IMG/VR virus record: IMGVR_UViG_3300018469_000176
Coordinates: 1-62,751 of that record
Direction: 5' to 3' (one strand)
From: a virus
DNA: 62,751 bases
In this document: piece by piece, positions 4,383-58,344 of the stretch
How positions within the stretch are numbered: the first letter of the stretch is position 1
How the letters are laid out: each line of letters starts with the position of its first letter
The notes under the pieces: generated by a model
Database searches by the model: none
What the model was told of the DNA's origin: nothing
What the model saw: the letters and a program-made list of their open reading frames with translations, nothing else
Translations under genes and position numbers: made by a program

Positions 4383-7300
4383 GCCGCGTCCGCCCAGGCG
4401 AAGGACGGCCCGGACTCCGCCGGCGCGGCCACGATCGGCACCCCGCGCAGCTCGCCGGCCATGCACTCGACCAGCGTCACCACGGCCTGCTCGGCCTCGG
4501 CCTCGGGGACGGCGACCACCAGCTCGTCGTGCACGGGCAGCAGTGTGCAGTGCCCCCACGGGGTATCGCGCCAACGCACCAGCGCATCCACCAGAAGTTC
4601 GCGCGCCGTGCCCTGGATGCAGTAGTTGGGCCCCTTGTGCGGGTACCGGCGGGGGAGGTGGATGATCCGCCCGGCGGTGGTCTCGAACTGGGTGTGCCCG
4701 GCCTTGATTCCCGCCCGGACCGTGGCGGACCAGGCGCTGAGCGTGGGCAGCATCGCGTCGAGCGAGTCCACCATGGACGCCGCGATGGCCTGCGAAGTAC
4801 CCATCTGCGCGGCCAGGGTGGGCACCGCACCGCCGTAGATCCGGCCGAAGACCCCGCGCTTGACCATGTACCGATCGTCCTTGGTCGCCTCGGGGCCGAA
4901 GACCTGCCGGGCGACCTCCCAGTGCAGGTCGCGCCCGTCGGCGATGAACTGGCGCAGCACCGCGTCCCCGGACAGCGCGGCGGCCACCCGCAGCTCCACC
5001 CCGGAGAAGTCCGCGGAGATCAGCAACTGGCCGGGGTCCGCGGTGATGCAGGCCCGGATCCCGCCCACCCGGGACAGCTGCTGCAGGTTCGGTCGAACGC
5101 AGGACATTCTTCCGGTGTCCGTCCCCAGGGTGTAGATCGTCGGCCGGGCCCGGCCGTCCCCACGGCACAGCTCGGCGTAGGGCCGCAGGAACAACGAGAG
5201 CGCGGTCTCGTGGTGACGGTGCTCCAGCACCGCGCGGGCGAACGCGCCCAGCTCGCCCTCGGCCTTGGCCAGCGGCTCCAGCGCGCCCTTGGCCACCGAG
5301 GGGCGGCCGGTCTTGGTCACCGGCAGCCGGGCGTCCAGGCGCAGCGCAACCTGCCCCACCTGCGCGTCGGAACCGGGGTTGTCCACGCCGAACGCACAGA
5401 CCGCCGCGGTGGCCTGGGCCAGCGCGGCGGTGTGCGTGGCGGTGAGCTCGGCGACGTGCGCGGCGTCCAGGGCCACCCCCACGTCGGTGACCCGGGCGGT
5501 CATCCGCTGGGCCAGCCGCTCGCGGGCCAGCACCGCCGGGGTGGGCTCGGGCAGCACCCGGGCCAACGCCGCGGTGTCAAGCACGTCGGCGGCGGCGTAG
5601 CGGGCCATCGTGGCGCACCGGGAGTCGACCTGCGCCCAGCCGGAGCGCTCGATCGGGGTGGTCACCTCGGTCTCCTTGAGCCAGCCGCCGACCTTGAACA
5701 GCGCGGTGCGCGCGGCGTCGGTGGTCGGGGTGACCGCGGTGTCGCCGAGCACCGCCGGCGCGAACTCCTTGAGCCCGGTCGAGTCGTTGCCGGTGGACGC
5801 GGGGTCGGCCAGCTTGGCCGCGATCACCGTGTCGACCATCCGGTCCCAGCCGGCCTCGATGTCGAGCAGCCCGGCGTGCGCGAGCGGCACGAGGTCCGCG
5901 GTGGCCGAGAAGGCGTGCAGCCTGCCGGCCTCGGCGAGCAGCTCCCGGATCGCCTCGGCGTGGTCGATCGGGTGGAAGACCGCGGCGGCCACCTCGTCGC
6001 CGAGCTGCACGGTCCGCAGCCCGTAGTGCACGTGCCCGATCGGGTAGCCGGTGGTCTCGACGTCCACGGTGATCCCGCCGGTGGTGCGCCCCGCGGCCGA
6101 GCGGACCACCGCGGCGGCCTGCTCGACGCTGGTCGGGATCACGTGCAATTCGGCATCCACTACCACCGGGAGGGTCAGGATCTCGCCGGCCGCCGCCGCG
6201 ATGGCGTCGAGCCGGGCCTGTGCCTTGGCTGCCGCGTCGGCGACCCGCTTGGCCTCCTTGAGGATCACCCGGGCCTCGGCCTTGGTGATGCCCCGTTCGT
6301 CGGCCATCCGAGCCACCGCGGTGTTGGTGACTTTCCGTGACGGCGCCGGCCCCTCGGGGAGATCAACAGGCGGTTCTGGCGGGTCGAGCGGGCTGGCGGG
6401 ACGATTTTCCGGTCCCGCCAAGTCGGATCGTTGCAGGTCAGACCCGGTTTTGGAGGGTGTTTTCGGCGGGCTGGCGGCTTGTTCCCTAGGGGTTGCTGGG
6501 GATTCTGGGAGTACTAGGCTATTTGGGGGGTGTGTGTTTTTTTCTCCTGTTTTCCTAGTAAAACTAGCCAACCCGCCAACAGTACCGTCGAAAACGTAGG
6601 GGGAGCTGCGGTGATCTTTTTTGGCGGCTTCGGGATCCGACCCGCCAGAACCCGCCTCAGACCCGCCAGATTCCTTGATCGTCCCGGTGACCCCCTCGGC
6701 TCCACGGACCACGTGGCGGGTTGGCAGCGGCTCCCAGGGCGCGATGCCCGCCGGTCCGCTCAGCACGGACAGTGGGCGGTGCCACTTGCCGTTGATCTTC
6801 TCCGAGGGGTAACCCATGTCGGTGAGGGTCCGACCGAACGCGGTGATGGTGGCGACCGACATCCTCCGGTACACCGGGCTGCGCTGGTGCCACTCGGCGA
6901 AGTGGTTGTAGAGGGTGCGACCGGGCGTGCCCGGATCGGCGGGCACCGTGCAGTCCTCCACCCACTCGCGCACCGGGTCCTGGGCGTGCGCGACCTCCTC
7001 GGCCATCCCCCGGATGGTGATCGGGGCAGCCGAGAGGGTGGCGGTGGTCTGGTCGGCCAGCCATGCGGCGGCCTCGCGCATCATCGCGGCCAGGATCCCG
7101 GGCGCCTCCGCGGCCAGGGTGGCACGGTCCAGGCGCGCCCACAGCGGCGCGACCGTGGCCTCGGGCGCGTTGCAGGGGATCAGCCGGATCCGGGCGCGCA
7201 GCGCGGGGTCGGTCAGGGTCGGCTCGGTGTTGGTGGTCATCACCAGGGTGTGGGTGGGGGCGAAGGTGACCGGGTTGCCGTTCATCGGGCGCGCGGTCAT

Positions 7301-9184
7301 GGACCCGCCGCCGGTGAGCTGCTTGAGCCGTTCGGTGGCGTCGTGCCCGCGCTTGGGTCCCTCGTCGATGAAGCTCAGCCGGCGGCCCTTGAGGTCGTAG
7401 ATGATCGCGTCGTGGTCCCGGTTGTCGCCGAGCAGCTTGGCGTTCGCGGCGTGCCCGTAGGAGCCGACGGTCTGCAACAGGAACTCGATCAGTGAGGTCT
7501 TCCCGGAGCGCTCCCGGCCGTAGAGCATGGGCACCACCGCGGTCGGGTAGCCGGTCAGCGCCACCGACAGCACGCGCAGCGCCCAGGCCCGGATCTCGGG
7601 GTCGGGCAGCACGCCGGCGAGGAACGCGTCCCAGGCCGGGGTCGGCACGTCGGGGTTGGGCGCGCACCGCGCGGTGTGCAGGTGCGGGGTGTTCGGGTCG
7701 ATCCAGTACGCCGGGGTGGGCACCTCGCCGCTCTCCCGCAGGTTCCACGGCACGCGCCCAGCCCAGAGCACCTCGGGGTTGGTGTCGAGCTCGGCCACCT
7801 TGAGCGTGGCCGCGTTGTCCGACATCAGGATGTCGCGCAGCTTGCGGGTGACCTTCCCGGCGCCGGCCGAGGACAGGAACATCGCCCGGCGCACGGCCTG
7901 CCAGTGCCCTTCGGTACGCTCGCCGGCCGCCGCCGGGATCGGGGTGGAGCCCAGCGGCATCAGCTCGGCCAGCGCGGCCACGATCCAGCCGGAGAGATCC
8001 TTCGGGTCGGCCACCCACGCGTCGGGCTCGCGTTTGATCCACAACCCGGCGTCCTGGGCGAAGCGCAGCACCGGGAACATGCGCCCGGCCACCTCCTTGG
8101 CCAACCCCTGGTCGCTGCCGTCTCGGCTGGGGTCGAAGGGGTAGTCCGGGCTCAGCGCGGTCCACACGTTCCACGGCGGGTCCGGGGGCGCGTCGGCGGG
8201 CTCCTCCTCGCCCTCCTGGGCCACCGCCTGGGCCGCCGCGGAGAACTGGGCCTCGTCCTCGCGGGTGTAGACGTAGAACGGTCGCTGCGAGCCGTCATCG
8301 AGGCCCTGGCGGATCCAGAGCAGGTCGTCGGTGTCCGGCGTACCCCAGACCCCGCTCACGGCCGCACAGAGCCGTCCCTCGGCCTCGTCGCGGTCCAGGA
8401 AGCCGCCGCCGACGTAACCGCCCAGGGTCATCGACGCGCGCAGCAGCGCGTTGCGGAACCCGAGCCCGCCGACCGGGTTGTAGGTCGCGACCTCGGCGAG
8501 CTTCTCGTCCATCGCACGGTGCGCGGCCTCGGCCGACTGCGGCTCTCGGGAGAGCACGAACGTCCGCCACCAGTCCGGGCCGCCGACCAGCGCCCCGACC
8601 GCGGTGCCGGCCCGGAGCTCCCGGACGTGCGCGGCCAGCGTGAGCCCGCTGGTGTCGCCGCCGGCGCGCAGCGCGTCGAGGTCCGGCGGGGTGATCCAGC
8701 GGTAGGCCGTCGGCTCGCCGGTGACCTTGGACGGGCGCACCGTGGGGGCGATGTAGGCGAACCCGTGGGAGGTGCCGTCGGGCAGCCCGCCCTTGAGGTC
8801 GATGCCCGGGTAGACGTTGTCTCGCGAGCCGGCCTGCAAGCTGGCGATGAACGAGTGCACCCCACCGGACGGGGTCGTCGCGGTGCCGTAGGACAGCGGC
8901 GGAGCCTCACCCAGCGCGGCGACGTCGGCGCCGTTGCGGAAGTCGAAGTCCACCAGGTCCAGGCCGTGGCCCATGACCGCGCACAGCGCCATCCCGGGCT
9001 CCCAACGGTCCACGATGGACGGATCGGCGGGGATCTGTTCCCAGCGGTTCGGCCGCAGGAACCCGGTCTTGGACGCGGGGTCGGGGTCCGGGAAGGCGAT
9101 GAAGATCGGGACGCCGGCGCGGGCCAGCTCGCGGGCGATGTCGAGGGCCTGGAGCTGGGCGGCATCGAGCTCGGTAGTGGTCAT
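4379..9184 (-). CDS. Fused primase-polymerase, SF3/D5-like helicase and family A DNA polymerase
   Basis: One uninterrupted 1601-residue frame carries a complete replisome core. Residues 1-200 resemble the bifunctional primase/polymerase N-terminal domain (Prim-Pol), with the acidic pair in DLVDFDFRNG near 75-85. An SF3/D5-like ATPase follows: Walker A GRERSGKTS near 556, Walker B-like LSFIDEG about 45 residues later, and a TTNTEP sensor. Residues about 790-1010 are a low-complexity Pro/Ser/Lys linker. The C-terminal third is a DNA polymerase I: exonuclease motif VDVETTG near 1040, polymerase motif A ISADFSGVELR near 1388, and motif C LPVHDEL near 1550. The ATG at 9184 overlaps the resolvase stop (ATGA). 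Separate primase-helicase and PolA genes are the usual phage arrangement, so the fusion is unusual. A slippery heptamer in the linker may produce a second, shorter product. Confidence 0.9.
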   Translation of the reverse strand: MTTTELDAAQLQALDIARELARAGVPIFIAFPDPDPASKTGFLRPNRWEQIPADPSIVDRWEPGMALCAVMGHGLDLVDFDFRNGADVAALGEAPPLSYGTATTPSGGVHSFIASLQAGSRDNVYPGIDLKGGLPDGTSHGFAYIAPTVRPSKVTGEPTAYRWITPPDLDALRAGGDTSGLTLAAHVRELRAGTAVGALVGGPDWWRTFVLSREPQSAEAAHRAMDEKLAEVATYNPVGGLGFRNALLRASMTLGGYVGGGFLDRDEAEGRLCAAVSGVWGTPDTDDLLWIRQGLDDGSQRPFYVYTREDEAQFSAAAQAVAQEGEEEPADAPPDPPWNVWTALSPDYPFDPSRDGSDQGLAKEVAGRMFPVLRFAQDAGLWIKREPDAWVADPKDLSGWIVAALAELMPLGSTPIPAAAGERTEGHWQAVRRAMFLSSAGAGKVTRKLRDILMSDNAATLKVAELDTNPEVLWAGRVPWNLRESGEVPTPAYWIDPNTPHLHTARCAPNPDVPTPAWDAFLAGVLPDPEIRAWALRVLSVALTGYPTAVVPMLYGRERSGKTSLIEFLLQTVGSYGHAANAKLLGDNRDHDAIIYDLKGRRLSFIDEGPKRGHDATERLKQLTGGGSMTARPMNGNPVTFAPTHTLVMTTNTEPTLTDPALRARIRLIPCNAPEATVAPLWARLDRATLAAEAPGILAAMMREAAAWLADQTTATLSAAPITIRGMAEEVAHAQDPVREWVEDCTVPADPGTPGRTLYNHFAEWHQRSPVYRRMSVATITAFGRTLTDMGYPSEKINGKWHRPLSVLSGPAGIAPWEPLPTRHVVRGAEGVTGTIKESGGSEAGSGGSDPEAAKKDHRSSPYVFDGTVGGLASFTRKTGEKNTHPPNSLVLPESPATPREQAASPPKTPSKTGSDLQRSDLAGPENRPASPLDPPEPPVDLPEGPAPSRKVTNTAVARMADERGITKAEARVILKEAKRVADAAAKAQARLDAIAAAAGEILTLPVVVDAELHVIPTSVEQAAAVVRSAAGRTTGGITVDVETTGYPIGHVHYGLRTVQLGDEVAAAVFHPIDHAEAIRELLAEAGRLHAFSATADLVPLAHAGLLDIEAGWDRMVDTVIAAKLADPASTGNDSTGLKEFAPAVLGDTAVTPTTDAARTALFKVGGWLKETEVTTPIERSGWAQVDSRCATMARYAAADVLDTAALARVLPEPTPAVLARERLAQRMTARVTDVGVALDAAHVAELTATHTAALAQATAAVCAFGVDNPGSDAQVGQVALRLDARLPVTKTGRPSVAKGALEPLAKAEGELGAFARAVLEHRHHETALSLFLRPYAELCRGDGRARPTIYTLGTDTGRMSCVRPNLQQLSRVGGIRACITADPGQLLISADFSGVELRVAAALSGDAVLRQFIADGRDLHWEVARQVFGPEATKDDRYMVKRGVFGRIYGGAVPTLAAQMGTSQAIAASMVDSLDAMLPTLSAWSATVRAGIKAGHTQFETTAGRIIHLPRRYPHKGPNYCIQGTARELLVDALVRWRDTPWGHCTLLPVHDELVVAVPEAEAEQAVVTLVECMAGELRGVPIVAAPAESGPSFAWADAA
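6149..6161 (-). promoter_or_regulatory. Operator-like site inside the replicase gene
   Basis: The minus strand reads AGTGGATGCCGAA, matching the 13-bp family AGTGGATGCCACT at its first 11 bases. It falls just upstream of the exonuclease domain and uses codons uncommon in this gene (GTA, GAA, TTG). In cluster A mycobacteriophages similar sites within genes block transcript elongation. That role is inferred here. Confidence 0.4.
6519..6544 (-). promoter_or_regulatory. Candidate -1 programmed frameshift site (A AAA AAC)
   Basis: In the linker between helicase and polymerase the zero-frame codons are GAA AAA AAC, placing the heptamer A AAA AAC (6542-6536) in exactly the phase needed for tandem -1 slippage. 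The -1 frame reads five codons (His-Thr-Pro-Pro-Lys) and then TAG at 6521-6519, giving a product of about 888 residues containing only the primase and helicase. An AGGA lies 10-11 nt upstream, at the distance of the stimulatory Shine-Dalgarno of dnaX. I see no strong downstream hairpin. The A7 run is conspicuous in such a GC-rich gene. Confidence 0.6.
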
Positions 9185-14765: not shown

Positions 14766-15226
14766 GTCGTCACCCCCCAGGCGCTCCACGGGTTCAACGA
14801 GGCGTCGAGCACCGGGGTGCGCGGCGACCAGGTGGGCATCGGATAGACGTAGTGCGGCGCGACCGAGGTCACCCCATCGGCCACCGGCGGCGGTTCCGTT
14901 GCGTCGGCCGGGTGAATGAACAGCGCGGCCAGGACGACCAGCCCCGTGGTGACGGCGACCTCGACGAGCACGCCGGGCTCGCGACGGGTGCTGTGCCGGC
15001 CTCGCACCCGGGCGTACCGCTGGGCGGGCACGGCGGGCGGTGGCCACTGTCCGTGTCCGGCCTTCGAGCGGCGCCGCGACGGGGGTGCCTGGTGGGCAAC
15101 GCGATGGGCGGGACCAACACTGAGTTCCACCACTCGGGGTAGCGGATGTGTGCAGGTGGTGGCATCCACTCGACTGCCAGCGCGCGGCGGTAGCGTGGTC
15201 GACACGCCGCGCATATAGTCGGTCAT
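14762..15226 (-). CDS. Hypothetical single-pass membrane protein
   Basis: This 154-residue frame has one clear transmembrane helix (VLVEVAVTTGLVVLAALFIHP, just over twenty residues in full, about 86-106) preceded by a basic region. A Pro/Trp-rich exposed tail follows, probably outside the cell. I chose ATG 15226 because GAAAGGCG lies about 11 nt upstream. A 13-bp operator site then falls inside the coding sequence, and a later GTG start is possible. It is coupled to the downstream gene by GTGA. Function unknown. Confidence 0.55.
   Translation of the reverse strand: MTDYMRGVSTTLPPRAGSRVDATTCTHPLPRVVELSVGPAHRVAHQAPPSRRRSKAGHGQWPPPAVPAQRYARVRGRHSTRREPGVLVEVAVTTGLVVLAALFIHPADATEPPPVADGVTSVAPHYVYPMPTWSPRTPVLDASLNPWSAWGVTT
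15158..15170 (-). promoter_or_regulatory. 13-bp operator-like site
   Basis: GGTGGCATCCACT matches the family dyad AGTGGCATCCACT at 12 of 13 positions. It lies near the 5' end of the membrane-protein gene, where a bound repressor would block the leftward transcript. Confidence 0.55.
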
Positions 15227-15280
15227 GACACCGCACGCCTTTCAAGAGAACGCAAGTGGTGGGGCTGTGGAGTCGAAGGT

Positions 15281-15322
15281 GCAAGAAGGTGGGCCGTTCC
15301 TGGCGGGGGACGGCCTCCTTGC
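15281..15322 (-). terminator. Hairpin downstream of repressor gene
   Basis: An imperfect stem, with GCAAG/CTTGC and GGCCGT/ACGGCC as paired blocks, spans 15281-15322 in the gap after the repressor stop. It would isolate the repressor transcript from the leftward genes. Confidence 0.5.
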
Positions 15323-15332
15323 ATGTGAGGGG

Positions 15333-15644
15333 TTACGCCGGCGCGGGCTCCCGGCCGAGCACGGGGTTATGGGGGGTGAGTGCTCGGCCGGGAGCCTCAG
15401 TCGGGGGGCTCTGGAGCTCCTCGACCGTCACGGTTCGGCCTAGCTTGTCGGTCAGTACACGAGCGGCTCGCTGCCGGTAGATGACCGAGGCCGGCGAGCG
15501 CCCCGATTCGACCCGACTGACGTGCTGTTGCGAGAAGTCGATCGCCCGAGCGAACTCGGAGATCCGCATCCCGGCTTCCTCACGGAGTGCCCGCAGTGGG
15601 CTGGTTTCGTGCATGGCGCCATGCAAGCACATGTTGTCCAACAT
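15333..15644 (-). CDS. XRE-family (Cro/CI-like) transcriptional repressor
   Basis: The 103-residue protein contains an XRE helix-turn-helix, about residues 18-72: LRALREEAGMRISEFARAI, then FSQQHVSRVESGRSPAS, the typical recognition helix region. A short Pro-rich tail follows and there is no peptidase or multimerisation domain. In-frame ATGs at 15644, 15632 and 15614 all lack a Shine-Dalgarno. I prefer 15644 because a promoter (GTGACA, 18 bp, GAACAT) ends 6 nt before it, giving a leaderless mRNA. The gene is divergent from the plus-strand operon at 15807, the classic position of an immunity or lysogeny repressor. Palindromes cover its start region, suggesting autoregulation. Confidence 0.8.
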   Translation of the reverse strand: MLDNMCLHGAMHETSPLRALREEAGMRISEFARAIDFSQQHVSRVESGRSPASVIYRQRAARVLTDKLGRTVTVEELQSPPTEAPGRALTPHNPVLGREPAPA

Positions 15645-15680
15645 CACCACATGTTCACTCGCTTGCGGCGCCCCTGTCAC
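15610..15680. promoter_or_regulatory. Repressor promoter and operator region
   Basis: Four elements lie together. TGCATGGCGCCATGCA (15610-15625) is a perfect 16-bp palindrome. ATGTTG-TC-CAACAT (15631-15644) is a dyad covering the first codon. CACATGTT occurs at 15628-15635 and again at 15648-15655, exactly 20 bp apart, two helical turns. A minus-strand promoter GTGACA (15680-15675) and GAACAT (15656-15651) overlaps the second copy. The layout suggests cooperative binding of a dimeric repressor. Confidence 0.6.
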
Positions 15681-15735
15681 CGCGGGGACGCTACTCGTAC
15701 GTTCGGGTCCGCGGGACCGCCGGTCGGTGGGCGGC

Positions 15736-15764
15736 TTGCAGAACGCCCGTCGGTAGGGCATCCT
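15736..15764 (+). promoter_or_regulatory. Possible promoter of the plus-strand operon
   Basis: TTGCAG (15736-15741), a 17-bp spacer and CATCCT (15759-15764) lie upstream of the 15807 gene. The -35 is reasonable and the -10 weak, as expected of a regulated promoter. GAGGAG precedes the first ATG. Confidence 0.3.
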
Positions 15765-15806
15765 CGGGCAGGATTGTCGCACCCACCCAGCACGAGGAGC
15801 CCACCC

Positions 15807-15980
15807 ATGAAGATCATCGACCTGACCGGAACCGAGTTCCACCGGCGACTGCGTAGTGCTGCGGCCGAGCTGACCGCGGACCCCGTCAAGCGAGACCAGC
15901 GCCGGCGCGCGCACGACCAGCAGTGGAGGCGCTGCGCGCACGGCAACAACCCGGCCGACTGCTGCGGGACGCCGCGATGA
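15807..15980 (+). CDS. Small basic protein, first gene of plus operon
   Basis: The product has 57 residues, MKIIDLTGTEFHRRLRSAAA at the start and a C-terminal RRCAHGNNPADCC with three cysteines and a histidine. GAGGAG lies 8 nt before the ATG. It is coupled to the next gene by ATGA. As the first gene opposite the repressor it could have a Cro-like or antirepressor role, but no HTH is visible. Function unknown. Confidence 0.6.
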   Translation: MKIIDLTGTEFHRRLRSAAAELTADPVKRDQRRRAHDQQWRRCAHGNNPADCCGTPR

Positions 15981-16246
15981 AGGTCATCCCCCGCAGCCAC
16001 ACCCGGAAGATCCAGGCGATCAAGGACAAGAACCTGGTCTGCACGGTCTACAGCGAGAGCGACGACTTCAAGGGCCGCGAAGTCGATCCGAAATACGCAT
16101 GGGAGGCGCTGCGCCAGTACACCTTTGCCCGGCTGCGCGACTACGAGGACGGTAAGCGCTGGGTGGTCCGGGTGCACGGCAACCTGTGGTATGACCTGGC
16201 CGTTTGCCAGACGCCCGATGATCTGCCATCGTCGCCCGATGTGTGA
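15977..16246 (+). CDS. Hypothetical protein
   Basis: This 89-residue protein begins MKVIPRSHTRKIQAIKDKN and continues with alternating strand and helix segments (LVCTVYSES, ALRQYTFARLRDY, RWVVRVHGNLWYDL). The start overlaps the upstream stop (ATGA). No family is recognised. Confidence 0.6.
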   Translation: MKVIPRSHTRKIQAIKDKNLVCTVYSESDDFKGREVDPKYAWEALRQYTFARLRDYEDGKRWVVRVHGNLWYDLAVCQTPDDLPSSPDV

Positions 16247-16261
16247 ACCCGGACCCGTTGC

Positions 16262-16483
16262 GTGAGCGACGAGTTGATCCCCACCTCGGAGGTCGCCACC
16301 CGGCTCGGGCTCGCCCGCAGCGGGGTGTCCAAGGCCCTGCATCGGATGGGGATCACCGCGGCCAGCGCGCAGAGCGGCCGAGCCGGTGAAGACCTCTGGT
16401 CCTGGCCCGAGATCCAGCGTCGGTGGACCGACCCGCAGTACCGACCCGGCCGAGGCCACGTCCGTCAGGAGCCCACCCCGTGA
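16262..16483 (+). CDS. Small HTH DNA-binding protein
   Basis: The 73-residue product reads LIPTSEVATRLGLARSGVSK at 5-24, a helix-turn-helix of the MerR/excisionase type. WSWPEIQRRW follows, a wing-like segment. The start is the GTG at 16262, 15 nt after the preceding stop. It may be a Cro-like regulator of the operon or a recombination directionality factor. Confidence 0.65.
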   Translation: MSDELIPTSEVATRLGLARSGVSKALHRMGITAASAQSGRAGEDLWSWPEIQRRWTDPQYRPGRGHVRQEPTP

Positions 16484-16665
16484 AAGACGCACCCCTGATC
16501 GACAACCTGGAGGGCAACCTCTACGTCGACACGCTGCTCAACGTGCGCTCCATGGCCCTGCTCGCGGCCACCATCGGGTACGCCGGCAACAACATGCGCA
16601 TCGGCACGATCTTGACCGCCGCGGAGGAGTTCGAGAAGTGGCTGCTCCGTGAGGAGCCCACGTGA
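16480..16665 (+). CDS. Small hypothetical protein
   Basis: The 61-residue protein contains an almost entirely helical central region (LYVDTLLNVRSMALLAATIG) and ends in TAAEEFEKWLLREE. Overlapping GTGA junctions tie it to both neighbours. It could be a small partner protein of the HTH product. Unknown. Confidence 0.55.
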   Translation: MKDAPLIDNLEGNLYVDTLLNVRSMALLAATIGYAGNNMRIGTILTAAEEFEKWLLREEPT

Positions 16666-17231
16666 GCCGGCACTGGCACGACGGGGTGAGCACGGCCCCG
16701 CCCGAGCCCGAGGGTCCGAGGCGACCGCGGCGGGTGGTCGTGGTCGTGGTGCTGGCCGTGGCGTCCGCGGCGGTGGCCGCCACCATCAGCGCGGTGTCGT
16801 TGACCCGGATCGCCGGCGACTCACTCGGCTTCCCGGACTTCCTGGAGTGGACCTTGACCGGGGCCGTCGACATCGGCGCGGCCACCGGCGCCGTGCTCTG
16901 GGTGACCGCGCGGGACCGTGACCGGCTGCGGGGGCGCTGGCTCAACATCTCCTGCTCCTCGGTGGCCGCGATCGGCGTCGGTCTCGACCACGCCAGCAAC
17001 GCCGCGCCCGGATGGGCCTGGGCCTGGGTGGCGTTCGCGATGGGCGCGTTCCTGCCGGCCCTGTCGACCTGTCTCATCCACGTGCTCGCCCACCTGGTCA
17101 CCGACAACGCGGCCCCGGCCGTGGACGTGACCACCAACGGGCACGTGCTCGACCCAGCGGCCGAGCGCAAGGCCGCCGATGCTGCTCGCAAGCGCAAGGC
17201 ACGCGCCGATCGCAAGGCTGCGGCGGCGTGA
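16662..17231 (+). CDS. DUF2637-like multi-pass membrane protein (SpdB-like)
   Basis: The product has 189 residues with four predicted membrane segments: about 24-44, 62-82, 96-111 and 119-142. The pattern FPDFLEWTLTGAVDIGAATG and AFAMGAFLPALSTCLIHVLA matches DUF2637, a family associated with actinomycete conjugative plasmids (Spd/spread proteins) and some phages. The tail is Lys/Arg/Ala-rich (AARKRKARADRKAAAA) and could contact DNA or the translocase. Its position four genes upstream of a TraB/FtsK-like ATPase supports a transfer-membrane role. That function is inferred. Confidence 0.75.
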   Translation: MSRHWHDGVSTAPPEPEGPRRPRRVVVVVVLAVASAAVAATISAVSLTRIAGDSLGFPDFLEWTLTGAVDIGAATGAVLWVTARDRDRLRGRWLNISCSSVAAIGVGLDHASNAAPGWAWAWVAFAMGAFLPALSTCLIHVLAHLVTDNAAPAVDVTTNGHVLDPAAERKAADAARKRKARADRKAAAA

Positions 17232-17255
17232 CCCGACAACCGAGGAGCGCACCTG

Positions 17256-17402
17256 ATGGAGAAATCCCGACGTCCCCGCCACTTCCTGTCCACCGATGAC
17301 CAGGAAGTGGCGTGGTGGGTGATCTGGCGCCGACGCACCTGGGCGGCCTGGGTAGCCCTGGCCAAGGGCAGCGGCCGACACCGCCGCCCGGAGGCTCAAT
17401 GA
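17256..17402 (+). CDS. Small Trp/Arg-rich protein
   Basis: A 48-residue frame starts at ATG 17256 with GAGGAG 9 nt upstream and ends in TGA overlapping the next ATG. Its centre reads VAWWVIWRRRTWAAWVALAK, an amphipathic or peripheral-membrane helix. The good ribosome-binding site and coupling support that it is translated. Function unknown. Confidence 0.6.
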   Translation: MEKSRRPRHFLSTDDQEVAWWVIWRRRTWAAWVALAKGSGRHRRPEAQ

Positions 17403-17722
17403 GTGCACCCGACTTCCATCCCCAACGTGTGGATGATGCTGTGGACAGCTCCGTCGACGACCGACCCCTTCCCGCGCCGACCGATCAGGTGGTGCGTCCG
17501 CTGCGGGCGACCGCGGCGACCCCGCAGCGCATGGGGATGCGGGAGAACGCGGCGTGGATCCTCGCGCCCGTCGTCCTCGGCATCATCACCGGCACGACCA
17601 TGAACCTGGCCGGGGCGAATGCGCTCTACATCGCTGGCGCCCTGTTCCTGATCGCGGTGCTCACCCAGCTGACCTGGTCTCGGTTCCGGTACCTGCGGCG
17701 GATCCGGAAGGCGAAGAAGTAG
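17399..17722 (+). CDS. Two-TM membrane protein of the transfer-like module
   Basis: The 107-residue protein has a polar N-terminal 50 residues, then two hydrophobic helices, WILAPVVLGIITGTTMNLAG and ALYIAGALFLIAVLTQL, and a basic C-terminus (RFRYLRRIRKAKK). It immediately precedes the FtsK/TraB-like gene and probably acts with it at the membrane, as small Spd proteins do in actinomycete plasmids. Confidence 0.65.
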   Translation: MSAPDFHPQRVDDAVDSSVDDRPLPAPTDQVVRPLRATAATPQRMGMRENAAWILAPVVLGIITGTTMNLAGANALYIAGALFLIAVLTQLTWSRFRYLRRIRKAKK

Positions 17723-17725
17723 ATC

Positions 17726-19627
17726 ATGTCCAAACGGCGCCACGTCACCGCATCCGACCTGCCCGGGCTCGCGGGGTCCTGGGCGCTGCGGAAGCTATGG
17801 AAATGGCGCGGCGTGCTCATCCCGATCTGGCTGGCGATCAGCCTGGCCATGGTCGGGACCTTGGTCAACGCGCTGTGGCCGACGTGGTGGCCGGCGCCGA
17901 TCTCGCTGGCCCTGCTCGCCGCCGCGGTGATCTGGTTCGTCGGCGAGCACCTGTCCGGGCCGTGGCGCAACGTGTGGCTGTGGCTGGTCCCCTCGGCCCT
18001 GGACGACGGACGCCGTGGGGTGCTCGACCGACCCACCGAGCGGGCCTACCTCGCGGTGCTGCTGACCCTGTGTGGGGCCTGGACATCCCGGCTGGTGCAG
18101 GACGGCTGGTCGGACCCGCTGTGGTACGCCCTGCTCGCCGGGGTGCTGGTGCTCGGGGCGCCGTGGTGGTGGCACCGACGCCTGCGCCGCTCGGTCAACC
18201 GGTTCGTCCGCCGCTGGCCGGCTATCGCCGAGCGGATCAAGGGGTTCGAGAAGTCCACGGTGCGGCTGCTCCCCGAACAGTCCACCCGCAAGGTCACGGT
18301 CCTGTCGGTCAAGCTCGCGCCGACCAAGACCATCGAGGACGTGGGCACCACACTGCTGCCGCTGGCATCGGGCTTCGGCCTCCGCGGCGGCGCCTGCACG
18401 CTGGCCAAGGACGAGAACTCGGCCCGGCACGTGACGCTGCGGATCGTCCCGCGCAACCCCTGGTCCAAGCGGATCGCGCACCCGTGCCCGCCGATCGGCA
18501 GCCTGGACCTCACCCAGGACGAGCTCACCGTGGGCACCGGGGTGCTCGACGACGCCACCGAGCAGCGGATGGCGCTGTTGCACTGCACCGGGGTCATCGG
18601 CCAGCGCGGGAGTGGCAAGTCCGGGATGATCGAGTCCCTGCTGATGTGGATCACCGCGGCGGAGCCCAGGCACTACGCGCTGCTGGGCATCGACATGGCC
18701 CACCTCGCCACCCTCGGCGTGTGGCAGCCCGCGTTCGCCTACCCCATCGCCGGCACGATCGACGCCGCGCGCAAGCTGCTGCAGGGTCTGTTCGCGCTCG
18801 GTGAGTACCGGGAGGAGGAGCTGGCCCGGCGCAAGATGGCGGACCCGAACTACGGCAACGTCCTGCGGATCGGCGCGGAGTTCCCGGTGGTGTTCGTGCC
18901 CATCGACGAGCTGCCGGCGCTGGTCGTGCAGGGCGGCTCGTCGGTCATCACGGCGCTCGGGCAGATCGCGCAGCGCTTCCGCAAGGTCAACATCTTCTTG
19001 ATCCCGGCCGGGCAGAACCCGACCGAGCACGACTTCGGATCCACCGAGTTCCGCGCGCAGTTGGAGAACATCATCGGGCTGTTCCTCGACGCGCGCCAGT
19101 CCCAGACGCTGTGGGGGGAGGAGCGCAAGCACGGGTGGGCGAGCAACCACCTGGCCCCGTTCACCCACCTGCTGCACTCCCGGGTCGGGCACACCACCCC
19201 GCGAGTGGCCCAGGGCTACTACGTGTCCCCGCGCATGCGCGCCCGGCGCCTCGGTGAGCTCGCCCACCTCGGCGACCGCGGGATGCTCGACACCGGCTCC
19301 ATGACCGCACTGGTCGGGCACACCAACCCGGGCATCGACGACGGCAAGTCCGGCACCACGGTCGCTCCGCAAGCACCCCCCGTGCTGCACGCTGTGCCTG
19401 CGCTGCCGGCCCGCCCGGCGTCGTCGGCGGAGTTGGACGACAAGGTGCTGCGCGAGCTCCCAGCGCGCCACCAGGGCTCCGTAGGGGCCACCGCACTGGC
19501 CACCCAGCTCGGGGTCAGCCGCGACGCCGTCACCCGCTCGCTGGGCCGACTGCGCGTTCAGGGTCGGGTGGTCAAGGTCGACCGGGAGTGGGCGCTGGCT
19601 CCCACTCAGCGAGTGGACAGCCCATGA
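17726..19627 (+). CDS. FtsK/SpoIIIE-like DNA translocase (TraB-like)
   Basis: This 633-residue protein has about four N-terminal membrane segments (residues 27-150) followed by an FtsK-type ATPase: Walker A GVIGQRGSGKSG near 290 and Walker B VVFVPIDELPALV near 390. A C-terminal winged-helix segment near 570-620 reads LATQLGVSRDAVTRSLGRL. Membrane region, motor and DNA-binding wHTH in this order is the plan of actinomycete plasmid TraB/TraSA, which moves double-stranded DNA between mycelia, and of FtsK. Replication segregation or a packaging aid are alternatives, and FtsK-like genes do occur in other actinophages. GGAAGGCGAAG precedes the ATG. Confidence 0.85.
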   Translation: MSKRRHVTASDLPGLAGSWALRKLWKWRGVLIPIWLAISLAMVGTLVNALWPTWWPAPISLALLAAAVIWFVGEHLSGPWRNVWLWLVPSALDDGRRGVLDRPTERAYLAVLLTLCGAWTSRLVQDGWSDPLWYALLAGVLVLGAPWWWHRRLRRSVNRFVRRWPAIAERIKGFEKSTVRLLPEQSTRKVTVLSVKLAPTKTIEDVGTTLLPLASGFGLRGGACTLAKDENSARHVTLRIVPRNPWSKRIAHPCPPIGSLDLTQDELTVGTGVLDDATEQRMALLHCTGVIGQRGSGKSGMIESLLMWITAAEPRHYALLGIDMAHLATLGVWQPAFAYPIAGTIDAARKLLQGLFALGEYREEELARRKMADPNYGNVLRIGAEFPVVFVPIDELPALVVQGGSSVITALGQIAQRFRKVNIFLIPAGQNPTEHDFGSTEFRAQLENIIGLFLDARQSQTLWGEERKHGWASNHLAPFTHLLHSRVGHTTPRVAQGYYVSPRMRARRLGELAHLGDRGMLDTGSMTALVGHTNPGIDDGKSGTTVAPQAPPVLHAVPALPARPASSAELDDKVLRELPARHQGSVGATALATQLGVSRDAVTRSLGRLRVQGRVVKVDREWALAPTQRVDSP

Positions 19628-19887
19628 GCGGCGACCCGGTGGGAACCTGGGTGGTGCTCGGGCTAATCTGGCTCGCGCTGTACGTGGCTGTGTGTGCGTG
19701 GTTTCCCTATCGCAAGTGCCGTGCCCCGCGGTGCGAGCGAGGCCGGAAATACTCGCCGTTCAGTGGGCGCGACACCAAGGACCGACCCTTCCGACCCTGC
19801 GGGCGGTGTGGAGGATCGGGTCTACGGGTGCGGTTAGGCCGCCGCGTCTACGAGGTACTCAGTGCCGCCCGCGAGGAGGATGACTAA
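19624..19887 (+). CDS. Membrane-anchored zinc-ribbon protein
   Basis: The 87-residue protein has an N-terminal membrane helix (WVVLGLIWLALYVAVCAWF). A Cys-rich domain follows, CRAPRCERGRKY at 32-43 and CGRCGGSG at 59-66, with four cysteines suited to zinc. It overlaps the translocase stop (ATGA), so it is probably an accessory of the translocase. Confidence 0.65.
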   Translation: MSGDPVGTWVVLGLIWLALYVAVCAWFPYRKCRAPRCERGRKYSPFSGRDTKDRPFRPCGRCGGSGLRVRLGRRVYEVLSAAREEDD

Positions 19888-19948
19888 CCCCCCGGGACCC
19901 CGATTTCCCCATGCCCTTTTCCCCGAACAGGAATGAGCTCCCCTCACC

Positions 19949-20380
19949 ATGGCACCCGTCTCGCCCCAGACCCCGGCTACCTTGACTCGTGACCATTTGT
20001 TGTGCGAACTCGTTGAACGGGTCATGAGCCCCGCGCGCATCCGGCCCCGCCTCTACGGTGATCTCAGCAGTAAGCGGGCGCTGGCGGTCGCGTTCCAGAC
20101 CCTGCAGCAGCTGTGCCACGAGGCTCAGGTCAGCGAGGTCGACCTGGATCTCATCGAGGTCACCGACGCCACCCCGGCGCTGTTCACCATGCTCCGGCGG
20201 CTCGATGTCGAGCTGCAGCGCTCCGGTGGCCGACTGCGCATTCGCGGGGTGAGCGACGCGGTGCTCATCGCCATGGACGACCCGGCGCTGTCGCTGGCCG
20301 ACGCCGTGATGATGTACCGCTGCGCGCACGAGGTCTACGTCGTAGTGGACCCCCCTCCGGACGACGTTATCGCAGGTTGA
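19949..20380 (+). CDS. STAS-domain-like protein
   Basis: In this 143-residue protein, residues about 58-105 read EVDLDLIEVTDATPALFTML, then a helix and SGGRLRIRGVSDAVLIAMD. This follows the STAS order of strand, phosphorylatable-loop helix, RGGRLRL strand and switch helix seen in anti-sigma factor antagonists. The usual D-S-S-G loop is replaced by DATPAL, so it may not be phosphorylated. A phage STAS protein could interfere with host partner-switching of sigma factors. The match is by eye and moderate. Confidence 0.45.
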   Translation: MAPVSPQTPATLTRDHLLCELVERVMSPARIRPRLYGDLSSKRALAVAFQTLQQLCHEAQVSEVDLDLIEVTDATPALFTMLRRLDVELQRSGGRLRIRGVSDAVLIAMDDPALSLADAVMMYRCAHEVYVVVDPPPDDVIAG

Positions 20381-20391
20381 ACCATACGGTA

Positions 20392-20419
20392 TTGCATGAT
20401 ATCGTGCGGTCGTTACACT
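20392..20419 (+). promoter_or_regulatory. Sigma-70-type promoter
   Basis: TTGCAT (20392-20397), a 16-bp spacer and TACACT (20414-20419) lie in a locally AT-richer gap, 36 bp before the ATG at 20456. They would start a second transcript within the plus-strand operon. Confidence 0.6.
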
Positions 20420-20455
20420 ACCCGTCAGCGCCACCCACCCGCTAAGGACACCGCC

Positions 20456-20827
20456 ATGTCCCTCTCGATCGACGCCGTGCGTCTGCACCGCGTTTCCACT
20501 CACCGCACCCGCGTGTTCCGCCGCGACAACGGCAAGATCCTCGGCTATCTCGATCTGATGGAGGAGCCCAAGCACGTCGGCCGAGCACGCCAGCGCCACT
20601 ACCTCGCCACTCCCGCGCACTGGGCCTTCCTCGGCACCCAATCCGATGACGGCATGCCGGGCGACCAGGTGCCGCGTCGGCTCCTGCTTCCGGTACCTGG
20701 TATTCATTCATCGCACGCCGATGCCATCTACGCGCTGTTGCGCCATCTCGACGCGCAGCGTGCGCCCGGCGTGGGGCACCCGCCTCACCCGGATGTCGTC
20801 ACTCTCGCTCCCAAGGAGACTGTGTGA
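20456..20827 (+). CDS. Hypothetical protein
   Basis: The 123-residue product starts at ATG 20456 after AAGGAC. It has a beta-like N-terminal part (RTRVFRRDNGKILGYLDL), a HYLATPAHWAFL segment and a His-rich C-terminus. It is the first gene after a clear promoter. No family is recognised. Confidence 0.6.
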   Translation: MSLSIDAVRLHRVSTHRTRVFRRDNGKILGYLDLMEEPKHVGRARQRHYLATPAHWAFLGTQSDDGMPGDQVPRRLLLPVPGIHSSHADAIYALLRHLDAQRAPGVGHPPHPDVVTLAPKETV

Positions 20828-21736: not shown

Positions 21737-22096
21737 ATGGCCCGGCGGCTGACCATCATCTGCGACCTGGACGAGCGGGAACCGGCGTCCGAGCACGCGT
21801 TCGGCCTCGACGACTCCGGCTGGAAGATGGACCTGTGTGACGAGTGCGCGGCCGAGCTACGCGAGGCCATGGACCAGTGGATCAAGCTGGCCACGCGCAC
21901 GAGAGGTCCCAAGCGCAGGCCCGGCGGGAACCCGGCCGAGGAGCGGGTCCGCACCGACCCCAAGGACCGCTGGGCGGTCCGGGCGTGGGCAGCCAATGAG
22001 GGTATCGAGATCCGGCAGAACGGGCAGATCCCCCGCGAGGTGTGGCAGCGCTGGCAGGACGCCGGTTCACCACGGCCCGCCAGCGACGTCGCGTGA
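21737..22096 (+). CDS. Lsr2-like nucleoid-associated protein
   Basis: The product has 119 residues with both Lsr2 halves. An N-terminal beta-strand dimerisation region (RRLTIICDLDERE, then FGLDDSGWKMDLCDEC) is followed by a C-terminal AT-hook-like DNA-binding region, WAVRAWAANEGIEIRQNGQI and PREVWQRW. Lsr2 is the actinobacterial H-NS analogue that silences AT-rich foreign DNA. Phage copies may silence lytic genes in the lysogen or counter host silencing. CDEC adds cysteines not found in canonical Lsr2. Coupled by GTGA to the next DNA-binding gene. Confidence 0.85.
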   Translation: MARRLTIICDLDEREPASEHAFGLDDSGWKMDLCDECAAELREAMDQWIKLATRTRGPKRRPGGNPAEERVRTDPKDRWAVRAWAANEGIEIRQNGQIPREVWQRWQDAGSPRPASDVA

Positions 22097-24429: not shown

Positions 24430-27400
24430 CTAAACGAATGCCGGGGTGCCGCCCAAGGCCTGTTCAACAAGATCGGGCTGAGCGGTGCTCGGCGACAGCA
24501 CGACCGGCTGACCGGCTTGCGGACCGGGCGTTAACACTGGTCGTCCAGCGCGGGAAGTTACGACGAGCGGTACCCCCGCCCGCACACCGGGACGCACGTG
24601 CGGACGTCCTGCGGTGGGCGGCCACGCGATGCGGATGTAGCCGAACATGGTGGCGACCGCCAGCAGCACGGCCGAGTAGGCGATAGCGGTGCCGGTCAGG
24701 GTGCCGATCGCGGTGAAGATGCCGCTCACGGGGCCTACGGCGATGCCGGCGGCGAGCAACGTGGCGACGGCGCCCAGGGAGCCGACGCCGTAGATCGTGA
24801 CGCCGCCGGCAGCCGTGAGCGTGGCCAGGGCCAGTAGCGTGGCGGCGCTCGGCGAGATGCGCTGACCCGTGGAGGTCAACGTTGCGGCGGCGAGCAGCAT
24901 GGTGGTGGTCAGCCCGGCCACGCCACCAGCGGCCGACAGGGTGAGCACGGCCAGCAACTGGGCGGTACCGGACTTGGTTACCAGACCGACCGGTGACAGC
25001 GTGGCGACGACCGTCAGCGAAACGGCACCCAACTCGGTGACGACCCCGGCGCCGTTCAGCGTGCCGACGACGGCCAGCGAGACCGCCCCGAGGTAGCCGG
25101 CGGTGGCCGCCGAGGACAGCGTGGCCACCACGACCAGGCTGGTGGGTCCCGTCACCCCACCGACCCCGCCGGAGGCGCTCAGCGTGGCAACCACGGTCAG
25201 CGCGGCCGTGCCCAGCTTGGCGAGGACCCCGACGCTCGTGAGGGTGGCGACCACGGCCAGGTTGGCGGTGCCGAACCGGGTCTGCAGGCCCGTCGAGGTC
25301 AGCGTGGCGAGCGCGGTCAGGTTGACGGCGCCGAGCTGGGTGCGCAGGCCGGCGGAGGACAGCGTGGCCACCGCGGCCAGGCTGACCGCCCCCAGCACAG
25401 CCACGGTGCCGGAGGCGGTCAACACGGCCACTGCGCCCAGCGTGGTGCCACCGAGGACGGTCACCAGGCCGGTGGTGGTCAGGGAGCCGAGCGCAACGAA
25501 CGCGACCGTGGTCTGCCCGGCGATGCCGCCCGCCGCGGACAGGGTTGCGACGACGCCCAGGGTGGTGGCGCCGTGCTTTGTCACAGTCCCGGCGGAGGCA
25601 AACGTACATATCACGGCGAGGGTGGTCGCACCGAGCTCGGTGACGATCCCAGCACTGGACAGGGTGGCGACGACGGCCAGCCCGGCTGCGGCCACGCTCG
25701 TGACAGCCCCTGAGCCGCTCAGGGTGGCCACGGCGGCGAGGTTCGCGGCGCCGAGCTTGCCCAGGACGCCGGAGGCGCTCAGCGTGGCGATGGCGGCCAG
25801 CGCGGTGGCCCCGAAGTAGCCGCCGGTACCCGCGCTCGTGAGGGTGGCCACCACGGTCAGGTTCGCGGTGCCCAGCTTGGTGACCAGACCGGCCGAGGTG
25901 AGGGTGGCGACCACGGACAGGGTGGTGGCGCCGAGTTGGGTGACCACGCCGGCGGACGTGAGCGAACCGACCGCCGCCAGCGTGGTCGTGCCGAGCACGA
26001 TGACGCTGCCTGCGGAGCTCACGGTGGCGATCATCGACAGGGCCGTAGCGGCCACCGCTGTCATCGAGCCGGCGGAGGTGAGGGTACCGACGGCAGTGAG
26101 GTTCGCAACCCCCAGCTTGACGATCACACCGGTGGTGCTCAGGGTGCCGATCACGGCCAGGTTCGCGGTGCCGAACCGGGTCTGCAGGCCGGCGCTGGTG
26201 AGGGTGGCGACGGCGGCCAGGGCGCTCTCGGCACCGGGCAGCGTGACCAGGCCTGCGCTGGTCATCGTGGCGACGACGGGCAGGGTGGTGGCGCCGAGTT
26301 GGGTGACCACGCCGGCGGAAGTAAGCGAACCGACCGCCGCCAGCGTGGTCGTGCCGAGAACGGTGACGGCGCCCCCGATAGTCAGCGAACCGACCACCGA
26401 CAGGGCCGTTGCGGCCACCGCAGTCACCGAACCGGCGGCGCCGAGAGTACCGATGGCAGCGAGGTTCGCAACCCCCAACTTGGTGATCAGTCCGGCCGAG
26501 GTGAGGGTGGCCACGGCGGGCAGGTTCGCGGCGCCCAGCTCGGTCACCAGACCCGCGCTGGTGAGGGACGCGACCACGGTCAGGTTCGCGGCGCCGGCAT
26601 GGATCACGGTGGTCGAGCCGGCGGAGGTCATCGTGGCCACCGCGGCCAGGTTCGCGGTGCCCAGCTTGGTCACCAGGCCGGCGGAGGTCAGGGTGGCGAC
26701 GGCCTGCAGGGTGGTGGCGCCGAAGTAGCCGCCGGTTCCCGCGCTCGTCAGGGTGGCCACGGCCGGCAGGTTCGCGGTGCCGAGCTTGGTCACCAGACCG
26801 GCGGAGGTCAGGGTGGCCACGGCGGGTAGGTTCGCCGCGCCGGGCTGACTCACCGCACCCGCGCTGGTCAGGGTGGCCACCGCGCCCAAGGTTGCCGCTG
26901 CCGGCTGGGCTTTGACGCCCGCTGAGGTCATGGTCGCGACGGCACCCAGGGTGGTCGCGCCCGGCTGGGTGACCGCACCCGCCGAGGTCATCGTGGCGAC
27001 CGCGGACAGGGTCGCCGCCGCCGGCATGAACACCGGGTCGGCGGCGGCGGTCAGCGTGGCGGTGGCCGACAGCGTGGACGCACCGGGGTGCGTCAGCGGA
27101 CCACTCGGAGTGTATCTGATGGCCAGGCCGACAAAGTCAAGGTTTGCCGTTGCCGATTGCGCGCCATTCTTAAAGGCATCGTATTGAACATGCAAAGTAG
27201 CCAGTTGTGCATACGTCGGGCACTGTGCCCCAGTTAAGGGGAGCGTCTCAGTATAGGTAGTTACCGTGGAAAGCGTAGGTACGTTGATGCCACCGATTCG
27301 CTCTGCTTGAGAAGGACCAGTAGCGAGGTTGACCCTTGTGCTGTACCACCGTGCGACGTTAGAAACCCACGTCCCGACCGTCATGTCCACCTGAGTGACG

Positions 27401-28278
27401 GTAGCTCCTGGATCATCAATAGCTGCCTGCGCATCAAAGCCAGTCAGGTACATGTCCCCGCCACCCGTAGTCGTCAGGGTTGCGAAGTTACCTGTTGTTG
27501 GTCCAAGAGCGTTGGTTGTGTTAGTCCACGTTGATCCCGTAGTACTAACTACCGAAGTTGGATAAAGTACCGCTGTAGTCTCAATGGGTAATTTGCCTGA
27601 TGCGGTTATCGTGGCGACCGCGGCCAGGTTCGCCGTACCCAGCTGGTTGACGGTCCCGGCCGAGGTCATGGTCGCGACCGCGCCCAGGGTGGCGGCGCCG
27701 GCGTGAGTGGGGATCGACGGGGCGTTGTTGACGTTGTCCCACTGGGTGGTGCCGCCCCCGTTACCGGCGCCGATTCCGACGTACAGGTCGGTGATCGAGA
27801 AGGCCGCGGAATAGCTCGACCCGAACTGGGTCCAGCTCAACCCGTTGAGGCTGGTGTACCAACTGACCGTGGTCCCGACGGCGGCGATCTTGAGCCAGCG
27901 GTGGTTCGTGGCGTTGTAGGTGTTGGACAGGATTGTGGTGGCGCTACTGGCGACGCGGCGTTCGGCGACGAGGTTGCCGCCTGTCACCGTGAACAGCACC
28001 CCGTCGGTGGAGGCCGCGTTGAGCAGCTCGATCCACTGGTAGGTGGCGCCCACGCTGACCAGTTCGATGACGAACTCGGAGCTCGTCAGGTCGTAGGGGA
28101 TCAGGGTGTAGAGGGCGGTGGTTCCGGCGGCCTTGGTGATGCCCAGCGTGCCGCCGGAAACAACCAGCTCGGCGGGGCTGTAATCCCATTTCGCGGAGTC
28201 TTCGGTAGCGAACGTGTCGGTGAGAGTGGCGACCTTCGGGTTGGCCGGGGGCGCCCCAAAAAGGGGGAGGATGGGCAT
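24430..28278 (-). CDS. Repeat-rich tail fibre protein
   Basis: This 1282-residue protein ends the virion operon. Residues about 18-190 look like a concanavalin/LamG-like beta-sandwich (DTFATEDSAKWDY, WLKIAAVGTTVSWYTS). Two 20-residue repeats are followed by an inserted module (about 225-395) of lower GC. About forty more copies of a unit like LGTANLAAVATLTSAGLVTK then run to near residue 1210. The C-terminus is short and Pro/Val-rich. Regular 20-residue beta-type repeats suggest an elongated solenoid or fibre shaft, with the lectin-like head as a possible receptor or glycan binder. Host recognition is inferred from the domain types and the position at the distal end of the tail genes. Confidence 0.75.
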   Translation of the reverse strand: MPILPLFGAPPANPKVATLTDTFATEDSAKWDYSPAELVVSGGTLGITKAAGTTALYTLIPYDLTSSEFVIELVSVGATYQWIELLNAASTDGVLFTVTGGNLVAERRVASSATTILSNTYNATNHRWLKIAAVGTTVSWYTSLNGLSWTQFGSSYSAAFSITDLYVGIGAGNGGGTTQWDNVNNAPSIPTHAGAATLGAVATMTSAGTVNQLGTANLAAVATITASGKLPIETTAVLYPTSVVSTTGSTWTNTTNALGPTTGNFATLTTTGGGDMYLTGFDAQAAIDDPGATVTQVDMTVGTWVSNVARWYSTRVNLATGPSQAERIGGINVPTLSTVTTYTETLPLTGAQCPTYAQLATLHVQYDAFKNGAQSATANLDFVGLAIRYTPSGPLTHPGASTLSATATLTAAADPVFMPAAATLSAVATMTSAGAVTQPGATTLGAVATMTSAGVKAQPAAATLGAVATLTSAGAVSQPGAANLPAVATLTSAGLVTKLGTANLPAVATLTSAGTGGYFGATTLQAVATLTSAGLVTKLGTANLAAVATMTSAGSTTVIHAGAANLTVVASLTSAGLVTELGAANLPAVATLTSAGLITKLGVANLAAIGTLGAAGSVTAVAATALSVVGSLTIGGAVTVLGTTTLAAVGSLTSAGVVTQLGATTLPVVATMTSAGLVTLPGAESALAAVATLTSAGLQTRFGTANLAVIGTLSTTGVIVKLGVANLTAVGTLTSAGSMTAVAATALSMIATVSSAGSVIVLGTTTLAAVGSLTSAGVVTQLGATTLSVVATLTSAGLVTKLGTANLTVVATLTSAGTGGYFGATALAAIATLSASGVLGKLGAANLAAVATLSGSGAVTSVAAAGLAVVATLSSAGIVTELGATTLAVICTFASAGTVTKHGATTLGVVATLSAAGGIAGQTTVAFVALGSLTTTGLVTVLGGTTLGAVAVLTASGTVAVLGAVSLAAVATLSSAGLRTQLGAVNLTALATLTSTGLQTRFGTANLAVVATLTSVGVLAKLGTAALTVVATLSASGGVGGVTGPTSLVVVATLSSAATAGYLGAVSLAVVGTLNGAGVVTELGAVSLTVVATLSPVGLVTKSGTAQLLAVLTLSAAGGVAGLTTTMLLAAATLTSTGQRISPSAATLLALATLTAAGGVTIYGVGSLGAVATLLAAGIAVGPVSGIFTAIGTLTGTAIAYSAVLLAVATMFGYIRIAWPPTAGRPHVRPGVRAGVPLVVTSRAGRPVLTPGPQAGQPVVLSPSTAQPDLVEQALGGTPAFV
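24640..27110 (-). repeat. About forty imperfect 60-bp tandem repeats in tail fibre gene
   Basis: The DNA repeats with a period of about 60 bp around a core like GCGGAGGTCAGGGTGGC, encoding Leu-x-x-Val-Ala-Thr-Leu-Thr-Ser-Ala-Gly. Units vary between Ala, Val and Ile at the beta positions. Two more copies lie at about 27590-27710 beyond the inserted module. Homologous recombination between units could change fibre length. Confidence 0.85.
27110..27590 (-). other. Lower-GC module inserted inside tail fibre gene
   Basis: Base composition drops sharply here (for example TCTTAAAGGCATCGTATTGA), while the reading frame stays open. It encodes about 160 residues (including TAVLYPTSVVSTTGSTW and TATLHVQYDAF-like beta segments) that interrupt the 20-residue repeats. 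This looks like a domain acquired from another phage. Confidence 0.65.
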
Positions 28279-58258: not shown

Positions 58259-58344
58259 TCCCCTACCAGACGCCGCGGTCCTGCGGGAACTGCGGGACCA
58301 CGCTCAGCCCCAACGGCACCTGCGCGAAATGCGACCGCCGATGA
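58255..58344 (+). CDS. 29-residue zinc-ribbon miniprotein
   Basis: Between two ATGA overlaps lies a 29-codon frame, MIPYQTPRSCGNCGTTLSP followed by NGTCAKCDRR. The CxxC-x8-CxxC spacing is a complete zinc ribbon. It is too short for most gene finders but its coupling at both ends supports it. Confidence 0.6.
   Translation: MIPYQTPRSCGNCGTTLSPNGTCAKCDRR

Follow-up and report, generated by a model that had tools for sequence, protein, structure and literature searches.

Capsids are the accepted vehicle by which phages pass from cell to cell, and the question raised by a locus in the IMG/VR virus record IMGVR_UViG_3300018469_000176 is whether the phage that carries it could also send its DNA from cell to cell through a pump of the plasmid type. 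The record, analysed here in its entirety and at its full length of 62,751 bases (hereafter the window), contains nine closely packed plus-strand genes between 15807 and 19887, several of them joined by 4-base start/stop overlaps, beside a divergently oriented helix-turn-helix (HTH) repressor; operon boundaries are those of a home-made gene caller supplemented by inspection. The original prediction for this DNA, made from its letters alone, had described just such an operon with small membrane proteins next to a repressor, and that arrangement is borne out. One of its genes, at 17726-19627, encodes a protein of the TraB/FtsK superfamily of DNA translocases (the motor). We put at roughly one in two the probability that this operon beside its divergent repressor is a transfer module, whose effector would be a membrane-anchored double-stranded DNA pump serving spread of the phage through or between mycelia.

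The motor protein and the label of its membrane partner

The motor matches FtsK_SpoIIIE (PF01580) with E=1.9e-6, above the gathering score, and aligns with the canonical TraB family (plasmid_TraB, NF041214) over 374 collinear residues with E=4.7e-8, albeit at 32 bits against a family cut-off of 800. Two N-terminal membrane segments (residues 29-47 and 55-73) are accompanied by an intact Walker A motif, GQRGSGKS, at residue 292 and a Walker B motif, VVFVPIDE, at residue 388. Weak matches to HTH profiles fall on the C-terminal residues ~565-620, for which a low-confidence structural model gives three helices with the spacing of an HTH, and the nearest listed folds are nearly all winged-helix. 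With this putative winged helix at its end, the order of domains would be that of canonical Streptomyces TraB proteins, in which transmembrane (TM) segments, an FtsK-like motor and a C-terminal winged helix follow one another (PMC3583192), whereas the Walker B motif differs, with EE in canonical TraB and IDE in the window motor. The TraB/FtsK-like motor that had been predicted is therefore present, on the strength of both family matches, the Walker motifs and the membrane segments; its predicted C-terminal winged helix survives in the weaker form of a winged-helix-like domain suggested by weak profiles and a low-confidence model. Zalpha (Z-DNA-binding) domains are the top sequence and fold matches of this domain, and the window has an alternating purine-pyrimidine tract; at the positions of the key Zalpha Asn and Tyr, however, it reads Thr and Gly by eye, and we treat it as a generic winged helix.

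Direct searches of annotated phages, plasmids, IMG/VR and genome contigs returned no close relatives of the motor, and a query with the G050 homologue gave no match in viral contigs. The weak tblastn matches of the motor lead to Streptomyces plasmids, among which the motors of Streptomyces sp. HF10, Streptomyces sp. 11-1-2 and Kitasatospora cathayae are homologous to it (E down to 1e-10) at ~20-30% identity. These plasmids also share the layout of the window, with a divergent regulator, small genes, a membrane protein and a motor. In four of the six plasmid regions inspected a gene annotated as DUF2637 precedes that of the motor, and in three of those four the divergent regulator is of the GntR family.

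Three scoring profiles, none of which includes the window motor, give it 78 bits (plasmid/phage Tra), 32 bits (chromosomal FtsK) and 26 bits (canonical TraB); because FtsK proteins themselves score 19-58 bits on the plasmid/phage Tra profile, this preference is real but modest. FtsK_gamma (PF09397) has no match in the window motor. In a tree of 47 sequences the motor lies on a long branch outside both the FtsK clade (support 100/100) and the canonical TraB clade (100/99), and in a second tree, from which another long row was left out, it groups with plasmid/phage Tra proteins, though weakly (64/28). As its sister, neither FtsK nor canonical TraB is rejected by an approximately unbiased (AU) test (p=0.46). 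Phylogeny, which had been proposed as a check on the motor's identity, thus places it outside the FtsK clade and leaves its sister lineage undecided; that placement and the missing FtsK_gamma match support the view that it is no chromosomal FtsK. Taken together, these comparisons point, with modest force, to a divergent FtsK/TraB-superfamily protein that leans towards the plasmid/phage Tra group.

The membrane protein encoded at 16662 had been labelled a DUF2637 (SpdB-like) protein, and for this label we found no support. PF10935 (DUF2637) has no match at E<=10 in the window, the 16662 protein scores no better than its own shuffles, and below many of them, on a DUF2637 profile for which 30 genomic hits were used, and profiles made from the DUF2637-like proteins of related plasmids and prophages miss it as well. 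Direct searches of annotated phages, plasmids and IMG/VR recovered no close relatives. The DUF2637 proteins of the plasmids are 460-570 aa long with long charged arms, whereas the window protein has 189 aa and is not detectably related to them. The canonical DUF2637 profile is also failed by the prophage DUF2637-like proteins and by most of the plasmid ones, so that failing it is no proof of a different fold. The 16662 product can be called no more than a hydrophobic membrane protein, without family assignment, in the place expected of SpdB.

Related prophages and their repeat arrays

A search with the terminase led to contig NZ_VZRB01000008.1 of Streptomyces luteolifulvus, where 9 kb separate the terminase from a TraB-like motor. 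The prophage occupies ~149.5-218.2 kb and has a 202-bp perfect direct repeat at both ends, the copies of which sit in what we take, by eye, to be a dodecin-type gene; a tyrosine integrase is encoded just inside the ends, and by these marks the prophage is integrated. Its gene order is GntR regulator, small genes, DUF2637-like protein, motor and structural genes, and its motor matches a plasmid motor with E=3.6e-59. Thirteen IMG/VR contigs (L085-L097) encode motors 54-85% identical to this one; in every contig a DUF2637-like gene comes before the motor and a Cys-rich protein after it. Several of these loci have terminase or portal genes that match by BLAST, and wherever a locus reaches far enough, phage structural genes lie close by. 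A tyrosine integrase domain is present in 6/13 contigs and a serine recombinase domain in 4/13, and an AAA_31 domain in none of the 13. The S. luteolifulvus prophage and these 13 contigs, with their DUF2637-like/TraB-like modules and clt-like arrays, are new here; a literature search whose coverage excluded most subscription papers returned no description of a TraB-clt-like module in prophages that bear an integrase.

The S. luteolifulvus prophage and the window have homologous terminase, portal and major capsid proteins (34-38%), and TraB-carrying Streptomyces prophages and the window alike have a TraB-like motor and small membrane proteins. By contrast, the prophage motors are only 22-24% identical to the window motor, and it is in the prophages, not in the window, that a DUF2637-like gene, a clt-like array 3' of the motor (significant at 13 of 14 loci) and, in several cases, an integrase are detected. 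The window protein encoded at 19624 resembles in its position the Cys-rich protein downstream of the prophage motors, to which it has no profile similarity.

Short repeats take up the 142-213 bp that separate the motor from the next gene at these 14 loci; in S. luteolifulvus the array (L081:4006-4214) lies directly 3' of the motor. About 10 of the 14 arrays have TGCTCG or TGCTCA in one orientation and then the inverse, and CCCTCG, CCCGGC or CGTCTA is found in the others. The commonest 6-base word is reached by 0/200 dinucleotide shuffles at 13/14 loci, L096 being the one that fails. The position of the arrays agrees with that of clt in plasmid pWTY27, a repeat-bearing locus just 3' of traA that is required for transfer, and for the TraB protein of pSVH1 the C-terminal winged helix is described as the part that recognises 8-bp repeats (PMC3583192). 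Repeat type also tracks the C-terminal residues of the motor, in that the three TGCTCA loci have PVTLGYLNGE...RGF and the TGCTCG loci mostly PVPIGDIDGL...RGY, an association noticed post hoc among related sequences and without phylogenetic correction. We regard the prophage arrays as putative DNA address tags (clt-like) of their motors.

The phage genome around the operon

The window encodes a tailed actinophage. Its minus-strand genes include those for the large terminase (TerL), portal, head protease, scaffold, major head and tail proteins and tape measure; together with a gene resembling the small terminase subunit (TerS), this series supplies the virion genes by which a phage-plasmid is recognised. 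The replication arm comprises a 1601-aa fused primase/polymerase, a helicase and an exonuclease. Between the structural and replication arms lies a plus-strand block from 15.8 to 24.3 kb, which begins opposite the HTH repressor and includes the operon (Table 1). From its relatives, we infer a Streptomyces-like, filamentous host. Phage Samy, whose TerL is 49% similar, was considered as another carrier of the module, and none is annotated there. The record is a linear contig without terminal repeats, so that a piece of the genome could be missing, and its completeness is not proven; gene order shared with G003 (g8, g3, TerS-like, TerL) suggests that little is missing at the contig ends and that these are close together in the phage genome.

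Table 1. Positions of the operon genes (15807 to 19887), the adjoining repressor and other features of the window
Feature	Position	Strand	Remarks
Glycosyltransferase-family phage gene	764-1468		phrog_14945
Primase-like and polymerase A-like regions in one 1601-aa protein	4379-9184		two separate genes among the tblastn matches listed
HTH_31/HTH_3 transcriptional repressor, 93 aa	15333-15614	-	Pfam HTH_31 E=4e-9, HTH_3 E=2.3e-8; ATG at 15614; divergent from operon
Small gene, 57 aa, first of operon	15807-15980	+	GAGGAG as Shine-Dalgarno; start of next gene overlaps its stop
Small gene, 89 aa, no family	15977-16246	+	
Small HTH-like protein, 73 aa	16262-16483	+	weak HTH_23/MarR_2, E ~0.04
Small gene, 61 aa	16480-16665	+	4-base overlaps with both neighbours (start, stop)
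Hydrophobic membrane protein, 189 aa	16662-17231	+	TM segments
Small open reading frame, 48 aa	17256-17402	+	Shine-Dalgarno; stop overlaps next start
Small protein, 107 aa, two membrane segments	17399-17722	+	
TraB/FtsK-superfamily DNA translocase, 633 aa	17726-19627	+	
Membrane protein with Cys motifs (CRAPRCERGRK...CGRCGGSG), 87 aa	19624-19887	+	ATG overlaps motor stop; TM prediction
STAS-domain protein (weak), downstream of motor	19949-20380		E=3.2e-4
Lsr2-like nucleoid protein, downstream of motor	21737-22096		phrog_1223 E=3.6e-22
1282-aa protein, probably tail fibre	24430-28278		many degenerate AATL.AVATLTSAG-type repeats
Gene among head genes, glycosyltransferase-like by eye	49318-50337		relatives in G003
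Small genes between small- and large-terminase genes	58040-60126	+	
Terminase-small-subunit-like gene	60537-60902		

Two further sequence features were observed, mainly towards the right-hand end of the window. The near-palindrome GGTAGTGGATGCCACTACC has 5 matches at <=3 mismatches where 0.02 are expected; its sites are at 60990-61008, 62338-62356, 62373-62391 and 62434-62452, with weaker ones at 1467-1498 and 15156-15172, and as some of them lie upstream of minus-strand genes it is possibly an operator or promoter element. Positions 61044-61225 form an alternating purine-pyrimidine tract (152/180 alternating steps against a mean of 94) that would be Z-DNA-prone. A CGCGCA cluster at 61075-61251, tried as a candidate clt, belongs to low-complexity alternating sequence, is reached by 6/200 shuffles and was not accepted.

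DNA transfer and its alternatives

If the operon is a transfer module, relief from the repressor would allow the motor and its small membrane partners to assemble at the hyphal tip or at a cross-wall, where the C-terminal HTH domain would see to its loading on a recognition site of the phage genome, after which the motor would pump unprocessed double-stranded phage DNA into the neighbouring compartment or mycelium. Transfer of DNA between compartments, control by the repressor, the recognition site and the filamentous host are all presumed in this scheme. Several observations weigh against it. No DUF2637/SpdB homologue was found in the window. The motor recognition repeats that the original prediction had suggested looking for are likewise not found there: no clt-like array was detected, 15200-20500 holds no cluster, the nearby non-coding gaps are at shuffle level, and the stop of the motor gene overlaps the next start, so that there is no 3' gap of the kind that holds the arrays in the prophages. 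The motor is only ~20-31% identical to any known Tra motor, with a long branch and an unsettled sister group, and a structure prediction for its full length (15 sequences) has a predicted local distance difference test (pLDDT) score of 45, too poor to use. Finally, the related motor of phage Evy (Samistivirus) has no DUF2637-annotated neighbour.

The last point bears on the alternative that survives best, in which the motor serves the phage inside the cell, for example by clearing or segregating phage or host DNA at septa, helping to resolve concatemers or guarding DNA at closing cross-walls, and no transfer to other mycelia takes place. FtsK-like motors that match the plasmid/phage Tra lineage are found in 89 Streptomyces phage records, and Evy, like the window, is a phage bearing such a motor; Evy-type phages, however, measure ~130 kb, and the Evy motor is located among tRNA genes with no annotated transfer-like operon. 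Since it lacks an annotated DUF2637 neighbour, motors of this group may serve another, intracellular role, and the want of a detectable DUF2637 partner and of a clt-like array in the window would fit such a role. Nevertheless, the window motor carries membrane segments at its N terminus and is encoded in a repressor-flanked operon with several small membrane proteins, as in plasmid transfer operons, and its highest score is to the plasmid/phage Tra profile, although the Evy motor is a member of that same group. On this evidence we think an exclusively intracellular role somewhat unlikely.

The original prediction had gone further and suggested, from the module and from the absence of a visible integrase, an extrachromosomal phage-plasmid that might move by conjugation as well as in the virion. 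This proposal overlaps with the transfer reading and has a precedent in pZL12, cited in PMC3583192 and PMC4487206 as a Streptomyces plasmid-phage with conjugal transfer. Like the window, pZL12 (phage ZL12, NC_013420) joins tailed-phage structural genes to a GntR regulator, small genes, the membrane protein gp73 and the FtsK-like gp71 in a single block; unlike the window, it has annotated ParA/ParB and an integrase-like gene and measures 90 kb. Its gp71 scores only 24-31 bits on the Tra profiles, and the window motor belongs to a different branch. A plasmid-type motor in a phage is thus real and, given pZL12 and the 89 Streptomyces phage records, not unprecedented. The predicted absence of an integrase holds, in that neither Phage_integrase (PF00589) nor Resolvase (PF00239) has a match in the 62,751-base contig, which is linear and of unproven completeness. 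This absence argues weakly for an extrachromosomal state, as do the gene order that would bring the contig ends near each other and the presence within the contig of the tail/early region, a frequent site of integration cassettes, filled here by the operon. The module itself does not argue for that state, because such modules occur in integrated prophages: that of S. luteolifulvus is integrated and integrases accompany 6/13 of the related contigs. The window, moreover, has no match to AAA_31/ParA, and no replication initiator was recognised among the window genes scanned. The step from these two premises to such a state is not supported, and we consider an extrachromosomal phage-plasmid doubtful.

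That the operon is a decayed transfer segment of a plasmid or integrative element, carried as cargo useless to the phage, would accord with its strong divergence and with the lack of a detectable DUF2637 partner or clt, but is very improbable, because the intact 633-codon reading frame, a third-position G+C of 0.94, tight gene overlaps and intact Walker motifs make the motor look maintained by selection.

Returning to DNA transfer, the prophages allow a broader, tentative proposal, which we find possible though on balance we would not wager on it: that actinophages use a plasmid-type double-stranded DNA pump as a second, virion-free route, by which naked duplex would pass through septa and between mycelia, that in the prophages the pump and its tag would change specificity together as a pair, and that the window phage would carry a divergent version of pump and tag. 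If this is true, lysis would not be needed for a prophage to spread inside a mycelium or from one to another, and neighbouring host genes might be carried along. The idea of such a pump is directly testable in S. luteolifulvus, a sequenced strain whose prophage has defined ends, an integrase, a putative tag and a motor that looks intact.

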